From: a bacterium
Lineage (GTDB): Bacteria > Armatimonadota > Fimbriimonadia > Fimbriimonadales > Fimbriimonadaceae
DNA: 64,000 bases
Assembly (NCBI GenBank): GCA_013823945.1
Contig: PNMZ01000007.1
Location: forward strand, 62,001-126,000
Direction: 5' to 3'
The notes under the pieces are model-generated. The model was not told the origin of the DNA and did not search any database. It saw nothing but the letters and a program-made list of their open reading frames with translations. Numbering within the stretch: position 1 is the stretch's first letter; each line of letters opens with the position of its first letter. Of the stretch, positions 1,579-60,159 are shown piece after piece. A program made the position numbers and the translations under genes.

Positions 1579-3717
1579 CTAGGCGAGTTTCGGGAAGCTC
1601 CCGGCGAAAGCCTGTTGGTCGAAGGGTTTGTTGCTTTGGGGTAGGAGGAAACCAGCTTTAGGGAGTTGGCTGTAAGTTGCCCCTTGGAAATCAGGATTTT
1701 GCTTGGCGATTTCATCCATGATCTCGGATGGATTGAAAGCTGGGGTTCCAGGTTTGATGCGAAGTTGGAGCTCGGTAAAGATCCGCCAAGGGGCTTTGGA
1801 TTCCCCGGGAGTTGGGAGGATTTGAGCCATACGTTGAACTCGGAATTCAGAGCTGGTGTATGTGCCGTCTTGTTCGGCGGGGAGGGCCATCGGAAGGATG
1901 TGGGTTGCATAGGATGCGGCAGTTCCTGGTATGGCGGTGATGAGGATCAGATTTTCAACGGATTCAAGTGCGGATTCAGCGAGTTCTCGGAATGGCGTTT
2001 GATCGATGGGATCGAAATCGACGAGGATCAGGGTTTTGACTTTGCCCGTGGCGCAATTTTCGAGGATCGACTTTGTATTGTTTTGGTCGGAAACCGGAAC
2101 GGCTCCGAGGAGGTGGGCTCCGGCGGAGTTGCAATGGAGGCCCATGTAGTTAAAGGCTTGGTTGTGCGAGGCTGCTGATCCGGCGAGGATGTGGTAGGCG
2201 GCAACTCCGTTTTCGGAAGAAGTCAGGGAATGAGTTGTGATTGTTGTTACGCTGTCGCCTTTTAGGACTTCGGCGGCGGCGTGGACGTGATCCTCGTTAA
2301 GTCCTGATTTGGTGCAGGCATCGGCAAAGTTCACGCCGGATGCGGCAGGGGTGCCGAGGGCGGATGCAATGGCGGCTGCGGCGAAATTTTCTGTGCCGGG
2401 GAGGTATCGCAGAATTGTGTGGGCGAAGGAGTCCGCTTCTGTTGGTTCGGAGGTTGCGACGACGACCTTCATTCCCCGTTGGAACCAGCCCTTGCGGACG
2501 CGCAGGAAGGACATGGGTTGCTCTTCGGCGAGGGAAGTACCGAATACGAGGACTCCGCTTTGGTGTTCCAGTTCGGCGATAGGGGTGCGGCGGATGCCGC
2601 CGAAGAGGTTTTCGGCTCGTGATTTCGAGTCAAGAAAATCTCCAGTTGATCGGGAATCGACATGTGGCGAACCGACTTGGTTGAAAAGTGATTGCGCGGT
2701 AAACAGGCTTTCGTTGCTGAGAGACTGGCTCAAGAGGAGGGCAGCAGAATCTCCAGCATTTTCGAGAAGGGCAGCGACTTCTTTGTTGATGTCGCTCCAG
2801 GAAGTGCGAACGAATTCATCGCCCACCCGCTTGTTCGGAGCGGTAAGTCTGGCAGGGTCGTTGTAAAAGTCGTGTCCGAATTTGCACCGGTCGGCGGTCC
2901 ACTCTTCATTGACCGCTTCATTGGTGCGTCCGTTGATGCGAATGAATTTTGAGCCGCGGTAGTCGAACCAGATATTGGTTCCGCAGGGGGTGACGGTGCA
3001 TATCCCGGGTTTGGTTTCGAGATCCCACGGTCGGGCGCGGAATCGGTAGCGGGCGGAGGTGAGGGCTCCTACGGGGCAAATTTCGATGACATTTCCGCTA
3101 AATTTGGATTCAAAGTCAGTGAGTTGAAACGTTGAGGGTTGCATTTCGGCCCCTCGGAAACGGAAGGCGAGTTGAGCATCGCCGCTAATTTCTTCGGTAA
3201 AGCGAACGCAGCGACCGCATTGGATACAGCGTTCGAGGTCGAGGGTGACGTATTGGCTGAGAGGATAGGCTTTCGGAAGGTGCCGTTTGACTTCAATGAA
3301 TCGGCTGGTTGAAGGGCCATAGGCAAGAGTGTTGTTTTGGAGAGGGCATTCTCCGCCTCGGTCGCATATTGGGCAATCGAGGGGGTGGTTGATCAAGAGG
3401 AATTCGAGGACGCCTTTACGATCTTTGTGGATTTGTTCGGTGTCGGTATAGATGACCATGTTGTCGCCGGCGGGGAGAGTGCAGGCGGCTTGGGGTTTTG
3501 GCATTTTGCGGACGGAGCCGTCTGGTTGTTTGAATCCGACTTCGACGAGGCACATCCGGCACATGCCGACCGGTTTCATGCGAGGGTGGTAGCAGAAAAT
3601 AGGAACTTCAAGGCCGAGTCGTTTCACGGATTCGACGATGAGTTCGTCTTTTGGAACCTGAAGTTCAATATCGTTGATCGTGATGGTGACCAGTTGTTCT
3701 TGTGCTACAGATGCCAT
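1579..3717 (-). CDS. nuoG: NADH-quinone oxidoreductase subunit G
   Basis: Peripheral-arm iron-sulfur subunit of complex I, 712 residues. The N-terminus is a [2Fe-2S] ferredoxin domain with cysteines in IFCYHP, MCRMC and AACTLP (residues about 40-85). Next comes the His/Cys cluster motif HPLDCPICDRGGEC (about 110-125), then a [4Fe-4S] set in CIQCGRC and CPVGAL. After these is a molybdopterin-oxidoreductase-like fold with a GICTVTPCG entry motif. The C-terminal half is divergent, as is usual in NuoG, where the molybdopterin fold no longer binds cofactor. It is first in the visible nuoG-nuoH-nuoJ run; other subunits must lie elsewhere. Confidence 0.95.
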   Translation of the reverse strand: MASVAQEQLVTITINDIELQVPKDELIVESVKRLGLEVPIFCYHPRMKPVGMCRMCLVEVGFKQPDGSVRKMPKPQAACTLPAGDNMVIYTDTEQIHKDRKGVLEFLLINHPLDCPICDRGGECPLQNNTLAYGPSTSRFIEVKRHLPKAYPLSQYVTLDLERCIQCGRCVRFTEEISGDAQLAFRFRGAEMQPSTFQLTDFESKFSGNVIEICPVGALTSARYRFRARPWDLETKPGICTVTPCGTNIWFDYRGSKFIRINGRTNEAVNEEWTADRCKFGHDFYNDPARLTAPNKRVGDEFVRTSWSDINKEVAALLENAGDSAALLLSQSLSNESLFTAQSLFNQVGSPHVDSRSTGDFLDSKSRAENLFGGIRRTPIAELEHQSGVLVFGTSLAEEQPMSFLRVRKGWFQRGMKVVVATSEPTEADSFAHTILRYLPGTENFAAAAIASALGTPAASGVNFADACTKSGLNEDHVHAAAEVLKGDSVTTITTHSLTSSENGVAAYHILAGSAASHNQAFNYMGLHCNSAGAHLLGAVPVSDQNNTKSILENCATGKVKTLILVDFDPIDQTPFRELAESALESVENLILITAIPGTAASYATHILPMALPAEQDGTYTSSEFRVQRMAQILPTPGESKAPWRIFTELQLRIKPGTPAFNPSEIMDEIAKQNPDFQGATYSQLPKAGFLLPQSNKPFDQQAFAGSFPKLA

Positions 3718-3934
3718 GGTGTTACGCCTGGGTTGGCAGAGGTGTTCCCCTCGGTGTGAGGGTGTACCCTAAACTACGGGGCGAGTGCACCGAACTTCCC
3801 AGGGAATTGCAGACGTCGGGGAGTTTGATGGAATTACCGGGTTTCTTTGACTGTGGATTAATTGCTACAGTTTTTTGCCAGAAATCAGGATATATTTCAT
3901 TTGTGTGAATATTGATTCACAGGTGAGATTGAAC

Positions 3935-6900
3935 ATGCGTGCGAGAAGAATGCGATTGAATGTGGCAGTTGCGGCAGCCATAGCGTTGGCAAGTTTTGGA
4001 GTGGCGGATAGTCGAAGGTTTGTTTCGATTGACGTTGACATCGAATTGACCCGAGTTGACCAAGGGACGCTGGAAAGCTTGGTGATGGGGTGGGGGCGAG
4101 TTGTTTCGCGAGACGACAAGACTGTTCGAGTCCGTTTGGATGATCCGTTGGAGGTTGCGGATCGGTTGAAGAGTTTGCGCGGCCGCAAGACGGTTAAAAG
4201 TGTTACAGCGATTGCACCTTTGATGCCGGGTGAGAATTTGTTGGCTCGTCCACGTACAGAGTTGAATCAGGTTTATCGGGAGTACCGGGAAAGCTACATT
4301 GCTTGGGCAAAGGCAACGGGAACCGCTCTCAAGGTTGGGGAAGCGGGCGAAACAAAGGTTCCGGGCACCGGGTTTTTGCAATCGTATCTCCAATATCGCC
4401 ACGACAGATCGTATCCGAATGAGTTCATTGATATGTCGGGTTATGAGGATGTTGCGAACAGGAGGACATTTGAATTTGATTTACAGAATCGAGCGCAGGC
4501 GAGTCGCGAGTCGAAATCGCTTGACTTAGGTTTTTTTGGCGGACGAGTTGAACCCAAATCGGGGTCAGCCGGGGGCCCAGAGGACATTACAGGTCAATGG
4601 GAGTTCACGGGACCACGCGATTTGCGAGCACCATATCGAATCTATTTTGGATTGAGTCCGGTGAATGGTCGGGCGAACGCGGTGGCATTTGACCCGATTG
4701 ATTCAAACACATACTATGCCGGAGGCGCACAGGGTGGTGTTTGGAAGACCACAGATGGTGGGGTGAACTGGTCGAGTACGACGGATGGTTGGCCCTTGTT
4801 GGGTGTGAGCTCGTTGGCAGTCCATCCAACGAATCGAGACATTGTTTTGGCTGGTACAGGCGACTTTTTTGGCAACGACGTTGCGGGAATTGGTGTGATG
4901 CGCAGTACGGACGGTGGTGCGACTTGGACTCGAACGGGACTGAATATGGGTTCAGCAAGAATTTCGATGATCAAGTTCTATCCGGAGAACCCGAGCGTTG
5001 TAATTGCTACGGCGGGTAAAGGTGGGGAGCGAGGGATATACCGATCGACTGATGCGGGGGCAACTTGGACGGAGCAGGTCACGACCGATTCAGATTGGGC
5101 GGATTTAGAGATTGGAGCTTTACGCGGAGATGGGAGCCGAACGATTTGGGCTTGTTCTGGTGGGAATCCAGGGATTATTCGGTATTCCGATAACCAAGGC
5201 GTGAACTGGACGACGGTAACTTCGCCGGTTTCAGGAAGCCAGAATCCGTTGCAAATTGCGACGAGTAAGACGAATCCGGATCGGGTTTATTTGATGTCGA
5301 CGACGGCGCGACGGCTCTATCGTTCCGATGATAAAGGAGCGAGTTGGACGGATATTTCAGCTGGGTTCCAGAATGGTTCGAACAACTATAACTGGAGTCA
5401 GGGTTGGTATGACTATTATCTGGATGCAACGACTCGAAACACCGCGAACGGTCCGGTGGATGTTCTTTTTGCGGGATTGATAGACATCGTGATGTCGATT
5501 GATGGGGGAACGACTTGGCGGAATATTGGCGGAAGCAATTACACGGCTGCTTACTCTGGAACTGCGATTGTTCACCAAGATAACCACAACATTGCGATTG
5601 ACCCGAACAATCCTTTGCGAGCCTTGGTGGCGACGGATGGTGGTGTGTTCCGGATGCTTTACAACAACACGAACGACACTGTGAGTTGGACGAATTTGAA
5701 CAAGAACTTGGGGATTACCCAGTTTTATACGTTGGCGGTGCACCCGACAAACAAGGATTACATCAAGGGTGGAACTCAGGATAACTCGACGCCACACTCG
5801 TTTGGGAATTTGATCCAGTGGGGTAACCCCGGAGCGGGAGATGGGGCTGGATGCGCGATCAACCCGAACAATCCCAACATTCAATATAACTCAAGTCAAT
5901 TTCATGGGTTGGATCGAACAACAAATAGTTATAGTTCTTCAAGCGGGTTTGCACCGAGTTTCGGGAGTGATTCAGTTCCGTTCATTGGGGATTTGTGGCT
6001 TGATCCGAATGATCCGACGAACGTTTATGTGAACACGAACTATTTGTGGCGGTACAAGGAAGGGACGGGGACTTGGACTCCTCGATTGGGTGGTCAGTTG
6101 CTTTCGGCGGGCGGCCAAGTTCGGTCGATGGGCTTTAGTTCGAGCAGCAACATCTTCTACACGGGCGCGAGTGACGGCGACGTTTACATGACCCGTAACT
6201 TTGGATCGACTTGGACGAGATTGGATGAGCTTGTTGGCTTCACTAACCGGTCTGTTCTTGACATCAGTGTTAGCCCTAGGAATACCGATGACATTTTGTT
6301 GGCGGTAGGTGGTTCGGGGGCGCATTTGTACCGGATTACGGGGACAAATACGGCAAGCCCGGTTTTGACGAACGTTAGCGGCAGCGGCTCTACGGGTCTG
6401 CCCAACGTTGCGGCAAGTTCGATCGCACGTGATCCTTGGCAGCCGGAGACCAAATGGTATGTTGCAACTGACGTCGGCGTATTCATGACGTCAAACGCAG
6501 GGGCAACATGGACGGACATTACTCAAAGTCGCGGACTTCCGAATGTTGAAGTGCGTCGCTTGGTTGCGAACAAGACGACAGGCTATTTGACGGCCGCAAC
6601 TTATGGTCGAGGAATGTGGCGGATTAAGATTATTCCGGCCCAAATTCAGAGCGTCGTTGCGAATCCGACTTCGGTTATGAGCGGGGATGGAGGGACGGTT
6701 GTTGTTTCGATTGACCGACCAGCTCCGGAAGCGATCACTATTCCTCTGCTCGACAATTCTGCAAATCTGAATTTGCCGAGTTCGGTGACTTTTGCAGTTG
6801 GCCAAAGCTCGGTGACTGTTCCCTACACGACGAACGAGGTCACGACTTCAGAAACAGTGACGATTTCGGCGGAGTTGGGTGGAACGGCAACGGCGACGGT

Positions 6901-57453: not shown

Positions 57454-57511
57454 AGGAATCCTGGCCTGAATACTTGGGTTTCGCTCCGTTAGCTTGGGGA
57501 ACAAGCTGGGT

Positions 57512-58333
57512 ATGGCTTGGACGAAGTTTGTTGTTGGGGTGTCAATGTGCGCCATTGTTGCGGCATTGGCAAGTTATCCGGTTGGTGCTCGGGCGCAATT
57601 AAGCATGATGGGTGGGGCGGCGCTGGCACCTAAGATCAATACTGGATCACTGGCGGGTGGGCAAAAGGCGATCAAGGGAGCTAAAGATGACAAGGCTAAA
57701 GCGGACGCTCGGGCTCAAGCAGTTAACGAGTTGATGGAGGAAGACGCAGGTCAGGCGGGTAAGCCCGATTTTTCGAAGTTGGATGCAAAGGTATATTCGG
57801 CGAGTGAATTGATCCAGGCGGTTTCTGCTCAGGGTTCGGAAAAGATGACGGGGACACCAGTTCGAGCGGAGGGGGTCGTTTTGAAGGTTTCAAAGTCAGG
57901 TGGTACTACGACGGTCTTCTTGGGAGCACCATCGAATCCGCAAGGGTCGCCCGTTTTTGCATTCCGTTTTGAAGGTGAGCGAGATTTTGCGGAAGGTTCA
58001 CCTCAAACGATCGAAGGTCGTTTTGGTGGTCGGATGAAGATGGACGGAATTCCGAATGATATCTACATTGTTTATGCTCAAGGGGCGGGCAAGTCTGAAG
58101 GAGCCGTCGCTTCTGCAGCGGAGCCGGAAAAGGTGGAGCCATTTGATGGATGGAAGTTTGTTGGTTCAGTTGAAGCAGAGGGTGGGGCGACAGGAGTTTT
58201 TGTTAAAGAAGGCAAAACGCTTTATGCTCAGCCAGGAGATCACTTGAGTGATGATGTAGTTGTAGTTCGGATGAAGGTTGGCGAAGCGGTTCTCTCTGAA
58301 GCCGGGAAAGCATCGGTTGTGAGTCCCTGGTAA
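57512..58333 (+). CDS. exported protein of unknown function
   Basis: 273 residues. The ATG at 57512 is preferred over the TTG at 57494, since it starts a clean signal peptide (AWTKFVVGVSMCAIVAALAS, cleaved near ARAQ). A Lys/Ala/Asp-rich helical stretch (AIKGAKDDKAKADARAQA) follows, then an OB-like beta domain (MTGTPVRAEGVVLKVSKSGG, FAFRFEGERDFAEGSPQTIE) and a C-terminal beta region with VFVKEGKTLYAQPGDH. Not recognised. The OB-like core suggests a small-molecule- or ion-binding periplasmic protein. Confidence 0.75.
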   Translation: MAWTKFVVGVSMCAIVAALASYPVGARAQLSMMGGAALAPKINTGSLAGGQKAIKGAKDDKAKADARAQAVNELMEEDAGQAGKPDFSKLDAKVYSASELIQAVSAQGSEKMTGTPVRAEGVVLKVSKSGGTTTVFLGAPSNPQGSPVFAFRFEGERDFAEGSPQTIEGRFGGRMKMDGIPNDIYIVYAQGAGKSEGAVASAAEPEKVEPFDGWKFVGSVEAEGGATGVFVKEGKTLYAQPGDHLSDDVVVVRMKVGEAVLSEAGKASVVSPW

Positions 58334-58396
58334 GAACTCCTGAATTCAAAAAGTTAAAGTGCGGTAAGAGGTTTTCTCTTGCTGCGCTTTGTGTTT

Positions 58397-58412
58397 TGGC
58401 ACGGCATGTGCG
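58397..58412 (+). promoter_or_regulatory. sigma-54-type promoter upstream of the PEP-CTERM gene
   Basis: TGGCACGGCATGTGCG has GG at 58398-58399 and GC at 58410-58411, exactly 12 bases apart, with a near-consensus TGGCACG block (consensus TGGCACG-N4-TTGC). It lies 75 bases before the start codon. RpoN-dependent expression of PEP-CTERM genes, with the PrsK/PrsR pair, is established in some proteobacteria. Confidence 0.72.
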
Positions 58413-58424
58413 CTTGTTTGCTCT

Positions 58425-58480
58425 TTGGTTCACCCAGCCTTCCAGGGTCTGGGTTCCTCTCAGGCAATGAGGGAGCAAAT
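58425..58480 (+). promoter_or_regulatory. structured 5-prime leader of the PEP-CTERM gene
   Basis: ACCCAG/CTGGGT (58432-58437 with 58449-58454) can pair. It is followed by CTGGGTTCCTCTCAG and a CTCA/TGAG hairpin that resemble the small-RNA candidate at 59385-59502. Ribosome site AGGGAG lies within the end of this block. Confidence 0.45.
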
Positions 58481-58485
58481 AAAAA

Positions 58486-59271
58486 ATGAAAAAGCAGCAA
58501 TTGATCGCAGTAACCGGCTTGGTCGCCGTCTTGGCCGCCTCAGCTAGTGCAACAACTTGGCACTTCGACTTAAAACCGCAGAATGGTGGTGGTCCGGGCT
58601 ATGGCTACAGTGCCACAGGTGGATCTGTGAAGCAGATTTCCAGTTCGTTCAACGATGTCACCGACCGATTGGCATTTGAAGCCACTTTTGGTAATTCCGC
58701 CGCTGGTACTTTGCCGGATGGTTACTGGCTTGTTTTGAACGACGGTCCCAACCCGAAAGGAACGAGTGATGAACTCGCGATTTTCTACTTTGATACGGGT
58801 GTGACGAACAACGGTCAAGCAAAGTTGACGGCTTACGGTTACAACGGTCAGAACGGCAATTCAAGCTATTTTGATGGATCCAATGCATCTGGTACTCAGG
58901 CACCGGACAAAATTGCGAGCAGTTTGACCACAAGCAACTTCGTGAATTCACTTTCCGTTGTGAATAACGCGAACGGAACCCGAACGATGAAGTTTGATAT
59001 CAATGCAGCGATCATCAACAATCACGATCCGAAATACGGTCCGGCGAGCAACTGGTTTGGAACTGGCTTTGACAACAAGGTTGGCATTTGGTTCCACCCG
59101 GTTGATGGTTTGGATGCTCAGTACGGCACCGATGGATTCTTGAAGAAGTTTGAATTCAGCAAGCAAGGCTGGGTTGATGGTCACAACTTGAATGCAGTTC
59201 CTGAACCGTTCACGATGGGTGCCTTGGGCTTGATGGCTTTGGCCGCTCGCCGAAAGAAGAAGAACGCTTAA
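58486..59271 (+). CDS. PEP-CTERM sorting-domain protein
   Basis: 261 residues. A signal peptide (KKQQLIAVTGLVAVLAASASA) precedes a 190-residue beta-rich, Gly/Asn/Ser-rich body. The C-terminus is the PEP-CTERM tripartite signal: VPEPFTMGALGLMALAARRK, that is the PEP motif, a hydrophobic helix and a basic cluster. Exosortase cleaves at this signal and passes the protein to the cell surface or exopolysaccharide. No exosortase is in the window. The RBS is AGGGAG, 12 bases before the ATG. A terminator follows. Confidence 0.95.
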   Translation: MKKQQLIAVTGLVAVLAASASATTWHFDLKPQNGGGPGYGYSATGGSVKQISSSFNDVTDRLAFEATFGNSAAGTLPDGYWLVLNDGPNPKGTSDELAIFYFDTGVTNNGQAKLTAYGYNGQNGNSSYFDGSNASGTQAPDKIASSLTTSNFVNSLSVVNNANGTRTMKFDINAAIINNHDPKYGPASNWFGTGFDNKVGIWFHPVDGLDAQYGTDGFLKKFEFSKQGWVDGHNLNAVPEPFTMGALGLMALAARRKKKNA

Positions 59272-59332: not shown

Positions 59333-59358
59333 CGAACTTCACAAGTTACTTGAGGTTT

Positions 59359-59374
59359 TGGCATGAAACGTGCT
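59359..59374 (+). promoter_or_regulatory. second sigma-54-type promoter
   Basis: TGGCATGAAACGTGCT, with GG at 59360-59361 and GC at 59372-59373, 12 bases apart. It is very like the promoter in front of the PEP-CTERM gene (TGGCA-TG/CG blocks and GTGC) and sits 27 bases after that gene's terminator. The only thing downstream on this strand is the small-RNA candidate. Confidence 0.68.
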
Positions 59375-59384
59375 TCTAAGTAAT

Positions 59385-59502
59385 GAAAGGAGCGCAGAAA
59401 ATCAGTATGGGTTTCCTGGGTTCTCTCAGCCACAGGCTGAGGCCCATTCCGACAGTAAACGGTGAGGGGCGGAGTGTTCGCCGCCCTCTCACCACTTTTT
59501 CT
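59385..59502 (+). ncRNA. candidate sigma-54-dependent small RNA, about 118 nt
   Basis: A transcript starting about 12 bases after the GC element at 59373 would run to the terminator at 59461-59502. It can form CTCAGCC/GGCTGAG (59425-59431 with 59435-59441), closed by ATGGG/CCCAT (59407-59411 with 59443-59447). The terminator stem is GGTGAG-GGGCGG/CCGCCC-T-CTCACC followed by T-rich DNA. No convincing ORF: the frame from ATG 59383 runs through the terminator. The segment CTGGGTTCTCTCAG also appears, with one extra base, in the PEP-CTERM leader. Confidence 0.6.
59461..59502 (+). terminator. terminator of the small-RNA candidate
   Basis: 12-bp stem with one bulged T (59461-59472 with 59481-59493), then ACTTTTTCTTT. 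The T-run is on the plus strand only, so it does not serve the convergent minus-strand gene. Confidence 0.88.
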
Positions 59503-60159
59503 TTAGAACCTGACTCCGATCATGTACGCCGGGCTTTTACCATTGATAAGGAAGAGACCAGTTGTGTATTGATCCCAGGAGTAGGTGACGAACGGATGGG
59601 TTTGGTGGCCTTCGTTTTGAAAGCCGAAAGTCCATCGATCTGGAGTTGTGTATTTTAACCCTACGAGTCCGTGAGCGTGATTTTCGTTGGAACGGAAACC
59701 GGCGCCCGAGTAGACATTCAGACTCGCCTCTCCGAGCGTCCAATTCTTCTCTGCGGTGACGCTGTAACCGGGGTTTCCGGTGCCGATGCCTTGGACACCC
59801 GCGGAAGCGTTGATTCCGGGAAATTTTGCTGATTCGGGAAGGATATTGATGCTCGCCAGCCAACGGAAGGAGTTTTGCTTATAGAGGTGGGCGACGCCGA
59901 GCGAAAGGCGCGGATTTGCTTGGTACCAGATAAACGTTTCTGCTTCTGTAATGGTGGTGGGTGCGATGACCGTGTTGATCATCCAGGTTGATGATTCCGC
60001 CGAACTGGCGGAGTATCCCCCGGCGACTCAGAGAGGGCAGCGGGCTTGACCGGTGCCTTGTTCTTGTTCCGGGAGTTTGGTTTCTGATTCAGAGTGGGCT
60101 TGGGCTGGGAGCCCGAAGGCTCCCAGCGCGAGCACCGCGAGGATGCTCTTGGTTGTCAT
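59503..60159 (-). pseudogene. exported barrel-like protein gene interrupted by one in-frame TGA
   Basis: Read from the ATG at 60159, 43 codons give a signal peptide (TTKSILAVLALGAFGLPAQA) and HSESETKLPEQEQGTGQARC-PL, then TGA (60028-60030). The same frame continues open for 174 codons, through the ATG at 59982, to a natural stop at 59503-59505. The second part is beta-rich and ends GKSPAYMIGVRF, a barrel-type C-terminus, but lacks its own signal peptide. This indicates one 218-codon gene. Either a nonsense mutation killed it, or the TGA is read as selenocysteine: context C-P-L-TGA and a hairpin of SECIS geometry follows. The ATG overlaps the stop of the Cys-rich peptide gene by four bases. 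Confidence 0.7.
59993..60017 (-). other. SECIS-like hairpin after the in-frame TGA
   Basis: On the minus strand, 15 bases after the TGA, TCCGCC/GGCGGA (60007-60012 with 59996-60001) form a stem with loop AGTTC; GAT/ATC (60015-60017 with 59993-59995) extend it across a two-base bulge. The distance from TGA to loop is 21 bases and the loop has G at position 2, within the limits described for bacterial SECIS elements. Such hairpins also arise by chance in GC-rich coding DNA. Confidence 0.35.

Follow-up and report, generated by a model that had tools for sequence, protein, structure and literature searches.

Comparison of genomes of one genus indicates that an element downstream of a PEP-CTERM protein gene is very likely a genuine small RNA (sRNA) family. 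The element lies in a window of 64,000 nucleotides (the whole stretch of DNA that was analyzed), which belongs to a Fimbriimonadaceae-type genome of 3.16 Mb, labelled G000. In our preferred reading, to which we assign a probability of roughly 0.55, it is a dedicated sRNA gene of ∼118 nt, which would be transcribed by sigma-54 RNA polymerase up to an intrinsic terminator and whose product would most likely be a trans-acting regulator. Sequence comparison shows that the gene exists, how it is built, and that it is conserved. An earlier note on this DNA had proposed a stand-alone sigma-54-driven small RNA with the same coordinates and a length of ∼118 bases; the coordinates and length hold, and both the occurrence in four species and an independent test with a covariance model support the proposal well. 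The features of the locus are listed in Table 1.

Table 1. Features of the sRNA locus and its surroundings (window coordinates)
Feature	Position	Strand	Remarks
Gene X	57494–58333	+	Family unassigned
Sigma-54 promoter of adjacent PEP-CTERM gene, TTGGCACGGCATGTGC	58396–58411	+	Best site of the window
Motif copy CTGGGTTCCTCTCAG in PEP-CTERM leader	58449–58463	+	
PEP-CTERM protein gene	58486–59271	+	Weak matches with NCBIfam; above curated cut-off in genome search
Conserved segment directly 5′ of the -24 element, AACTTCACAAGTTACTTGAGGTT	59335–59357	+	95.5% identity to G001 over 59335–59356
Sigma-54 (-24/-12) promoter TTGGCATGAAACGTGC	59358–59373	+	GG-N10-GC; kept in G001, G002, and G007
Predicted non-coding RNA, ∼118 nt	59385–59502	+	No conserved ORF; covariance model match in G007 and G002
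5′ hairpin H1, 3′ arm CTGGGTTC	59390–59423	+	Arm invariant in G000, G001, and G007
Hairpin H2, CTCAGCC-ACA-GGCTGAG	59425–59441	+	Kept in G001 as CTCAG/CTGAG; absent in G007
Conserved linker TTCCGACAG	59448–59456	+	Core TCCGACAG invariant in four species; candidate interaction site
Intrinsic terminator (12-bp stem, one bulge; T-run)	59461–59502	+	Stem 59461–59493
Convergent gene (candidate selenoprotein)	60159–59503	-	Stop codon at 59503
Metallothionein-like peptide MNENTQTCCPCCTCGPDCQCNPCTCCKCADQEGNCTC(K)	60272–60157	-	Adjoins secreted Cys-rich protein gene
Cys-rich secreted protein gene	60692–60333	-	Converges on sRNA element

On the + strand, gene X is followed by the PEP-CTERM gene, the terminator of that gene, and the sRNA element. 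Eight genomes of the genus (G000–G007) were compared, among which G001 is a complete genome that matches CP021423 (Uphvl-Ar1) in place and identity, and G003 and G004 correspond to two Fimbriimonadaceae MAGs. Gene X, for which Pfam gave no match, precedes the locus in each of the eight and is conserved. Downstream of X, G001 carries the PEP-CTERM gene and the sRNA element, as in G000. In G007 and G002, the sRNA element is located directly downstream of X, without a PEP-CTERM gene there. The G005 locus contains three tandem PEP-CTERM genes and no sRNA element; these paralogues lie downstream of X on contig C19 (∼2860–5670), each with its own -24/-12-like site. Neither the element nor the PEP-CTERM gene was found on the short contig of G006.

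The promoter that the earlier note described as a second -24/-12 promoter is present at the claimed place and is conserved in four species. In a consensus scan of both strands, it ranks second in the window, after the site of the PEP-CTERM gene, and both of these top sigma-54-like sites are intergenic and correctly oriented. In shuffled windows, about one site per 64 kb scores as high as the sRNA promoter. A sigma-54 gene is present once per genome in 8/8 genomes of the genus. The consensus match and its conservation suggest that the sRNA gene depends on sigma-54. Conservation extends upstream, and a 29-nt stretch up to the -24 box is also common to G003 and G004, in which the RNA itself has changed. 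A scan for the pattern of promoter plus TCCGACAG returned only chance-level matches elsewhere. Based on the usual spacing between promoter and start, the RNA is predicted to begin near 59385, which gives a length of ∼118 nt to the T-run at ∼59502. For the 132 nt that run from the promoter to the T-run, the folding z score is -4.0. No ORF or reading frame within the RNA is conserved between the species compared, so a small encoded protein was rejected, and the earlier view that no ORF is credible was borne out. The genes that come next downstream are encoded on the - strand.

Two covariance models were used to trace the element among relatives. Model R1, built from the four sequences of G000, G001, G007, and G002, matched only those four members of one genus among 85 genomes of the family; no copy was found with it in other genera of the family, and two weak matches in another genus resemble coding sequence. 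Model R2, built only from G000 and G001, provided an independent test on 46 kb of the six other genomes of the genus. Its best match was in G007 (52.6 bits, E = 8e-13) and its second in G002 (31.5 bits, E = 4e-7), with the next one at 0.065, and both top matches are syntenic, on the right strand, and beside a sigma-54 site. Between G000 and G001, the transcribed part is ∼85% identical, compared with ∼69% at third codon positions (p = 4e-4, from counts rounded from percentages); other short intergenic segments of this pair are also 81–87% identical, so pairwise conservation alone is a weak argument.

The order of promoter, hairpin, linker, and terminator is the same in G000, G001, G007, and G002. 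In the 5′ hairpin H1, GGAGCGCAG..AAATC pairs with GGTTT..CTGGGTTC both in the MFE structure and in the relatives, so the motif shared with the PEP-CTERM leader (see below) corresponds to the 3′ arm of a 5′ hairpin. H1 is predicted with the same length in G000, G001, and G007; across the 14 positions of each arm, 90.5% of cells in the three sequences are paired, compared with 24–57% when the arms are slid. The hairpin CTCAGCC/GGCTGAG proposed earlier is present as H2; the stem ATGGG/CCCAT that was thought to close it is not conserved, as G001 has CTGGT/CCCAT. An alternative stem, P1, which joins the 5′ end with TTCCGACAG, was rejected, as it is strong only in G007 and in G001 lies partly 5′ of the predicted start. 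The 12-bp terminator with its T-run was also recovered, with a bulge in its stem. The covariation of stems, which the earlier note had named as a check, is seen for the terminator, in which 100% of cells are paired in four species and four pairs are changed on both sides; H1 contains one compensatory pair, and three sequences are too few for a proof of covariation. The linker core TCCGACAG is identical in the four species, although their neighboring X proteins share only 47–54% identity with that of the window. The linker has unpaired probabilities of 0.72–0.99 in G000 and 0.57–0.84 in G001, and is predicted to be partly paired in G002. Its pairing thus differs among species, which makes its role as a contact site uncertain. 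Points against the sRNA reading are the absence of H2 in G007, the predicted pairing of the linker in G007, the different H1 region of G002, the sRNA of which lacks CTGGGTTC, the changed -12 element and RNA of G003 and G004, and the lack of the element in G005 and G006. A 5′ hairpin, a conserved linker, and a terminator in this order are typical of trans-acting sRNAs, a mode of action that we favor with moderate confidence.

The motif CTGGGTTC(C)TCTCAG, which the earlier note had reported as common to the PEP-CTERM leader and the sRNA, is indeed present in both. In G000 and G001, the shared segment is 14–15 nt long, and CTGGGTTCN{0,3}CTCAG has no further occurrence in the 3.16-Mb G000, nor in G001 outside the two orthologous places. 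The match between leader and sRNA was equalled by 7/3000 shuffles in G000 and 1/3000 in G001. Both RNAs are predicted to fold a hairpin close to their 5′ end, with CTGGGT(TC) as its 3′ arm, and in the G007 sRNA the CTGGGTTC arm is invariant while its partner arm varies. These observations favor the proposal of a free leader copy that titrates a protein binding CTGGGTTC and the following hairpin. However, the sRNA and the PEP-CTERM gene do not co-occur across species: G007 and G002 have the sRNA without this gene, and the three homologous PEP-CTERM genes of G005 occur without the motif and without the sRNA, which for that species is the outcome that the earlier note had named as a refutation. 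In addition, the sRNA covariance model does not match the leader, the two RNAs share no model or alignment match beyond the short motif, and the G002 sRNA does without the motif altogether. We therefore regard an untethered leader copy titrating the same regulator, as the earlier note envisaged, as unsupported and very unlikely. Since the sRNA is kept in four species, two of them without the PEP-CTERM gene, it is better seen as an sRNA in its own right. The motif was not found at the ∼60 other PEP-CTERM genes of G000. A match of CTGGGTTCTCTCAG in G005 is probably fortuitous, with no -24/-12 site evident there, and direct antisense pairing between sRNA and leader was rejected, as it was not better than for shuffled sRNA controls. 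The shared segment could mark a common binding partner in G000 and G001. It is a long shot that the sRNA coordinates the PEP-CTERM surface-protein program of Fimbriimonadaceae through the hairpin-plus-CUGGGUUC that it shares with the leader, with one RNA-binding protein reading both; if true, such reading would constitute post-transcriptional control of exosortase substrates.

G003 and G004 retain the upstream half of the promoter (TTTTGGCACGGTGTTTGA), and the -12 element reads GA instead of GC. What follows at the syntenic site (∼1735–1855 of the extracted locus in G003) is a short structured RNA of another kind, which ends in a terminator of its own, so the change in these two genomes may be either replacement or decay. 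The damaged -12 element and altered RNA, the three tandem PEP-CTERM genes of G005, each with a -24/-12-like site, and the motif common to sRNA and PEP-CTERM leader are all consistent with a decaying relic, that is, a promoter and leader that remain after the loss of a tandem PEP-CTERM copy and are transcribed without function. This origin is nevertheless improbable for the element as found in G000, G001, G007, and G002, as these species are too diverged for neutral retention and have kept the architecture, the linker, and a covarying terminator.

The RNA faces a convergent gene on the opposite strand, and its end coincides with the stop codon of this gene. The gene reads as a single 218-aa protein, which starts like a signal peptide and contains just one in-frame TGA, in a CPLU (CxxU) context; Pfam and NCBIfam gave no family match. 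The TGA occupies the same place in G001 and G004, i.e. in three species with G000. Shortly 3′ of it lies a bSECIS-like hairpin, the loop of which reads (A/G)GTTC and in which 3/6 pairs are compensated in the three species. The genome also contains a gene for tRNA-Sec (anticodon TCA). From its sequence, the convergent gene is a strong selenoprotein candidate. Cys-rich genes similar to the 60272–60157 region are found at the same place in G001–G004 and G007. The RNA might act in cis, tuning the convergent selenoprotein/metallothionein-like operon by antisense pairing, interference, or termination. The abutting ends would fit this, as would the convergent Cys-rich peptide gene that comes next in the four RNA-bearing species and in G003 and G004. 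Such a role appears unlikely to us, as the gene directly facing the RNA varies among species, the conserved parts are the 5′ hairpin and linker, which are far from the overlap, and the terminator, when read in reverse, lacks a T-run.

For the preferred trans-acting sRNA, the following sequence of events can be envisaged. An enhancer-binding protein would activate the sRNA gene along with other genes under sigma-54, among them some for PEP-CTERM proteins; sigma-54 RNA polymerase would transcribe the gene, and the intrinsic terminator would end an RNA in which H1, in this species followed by H2, precedes the conserved linker UUCCGACAGU and the terminator. Contacts with target mRNAs or an RNA-binding protein may then be made through the linker or the CUGGGUUC arm. 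The complement to the linker TTCCGACAG, CTGTCGGAR, has 30 sites in the genome, the sRNA itself included, with no enrichment over the control, and among the 29 sites inspected none was clearly at a ribosome-binding site/Shine-Dalgarno position, so linker-complementary mRNA targets were rejected.

G000 contains about 60 PEP-CTERM genes, a minority of which have strong sigma-54 sites. Among the PEP-CTERM genes inspected, 4/30 carry a strong -24/-12 site no more than 250 nt from the start, compared with ∼2% of random positions, so a sigma factor common to the RNA and some of the PEP-CTERM genes is probable. In Proteobacteria, sigma-54 promoters of PEP-CTERM genes are known, together with the PEP-CTERM box and PrsK/PrsR (Haft et al. 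2006, PMC1569441), and pepA of Aquincola is a PEP-CTERM gene with a sigma-54 promoter (PMC9850573). The same promoter class is found here at the neighboring PEP-CTERM gene and some others. Unlike the proteobacterial promoters, which lie upstream of protein genes, the one described here would drive an RNA without an ORF.

The element has the features of a sigma-54-dependent intergenic sRNA: a GG-N10-GC promoter at the right distance, no conserved ORF, and its own terminator. CrcZ/CrcY of Pseudomonas and Azotobacter belong to this kind of sRNA. GlmY of enterobacteria is described as a further precedent (PMC6075780), and Dv_sRNA2 of Desulfovibrio vulgaris as a target of a sigma-54 response regulator (PMC3333781). 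Like them, the element is an independent RNA gene that lies between other genes and is preceded by a -24/-12 promoter, and the genome resembles that of D. vulgaris in also having -24/-12 sites upstream of PEP-CTERM genes; unlike them, it is found in a different phylum. No sequence match was found to GlmY, CrcZ/CrcY, or Dv_sRNA2, and Rfam contained no family at gathering threshold, the weak match to PrrB_RsmZ being on the opposite strand (12.9 bits; gathering 44). The literature and Rfam release searched contained no described regulatory sRNA for Fimbriimonadaceae, and no literature linking Fimbriimonas with small RNAs was found. The element is thus a new, genus-restricted example of the sigma-54-dependent sRNA, itself a known kind. 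In a genome with ∼60 PEP-CTERM genes, a conserved sRNA behind a sigma-54 promoter offers a concrete starting point that is easy to test: start site and size are predicted, the linker is conserved, and the gene can be probed in a relative whose genome is complete (G001).
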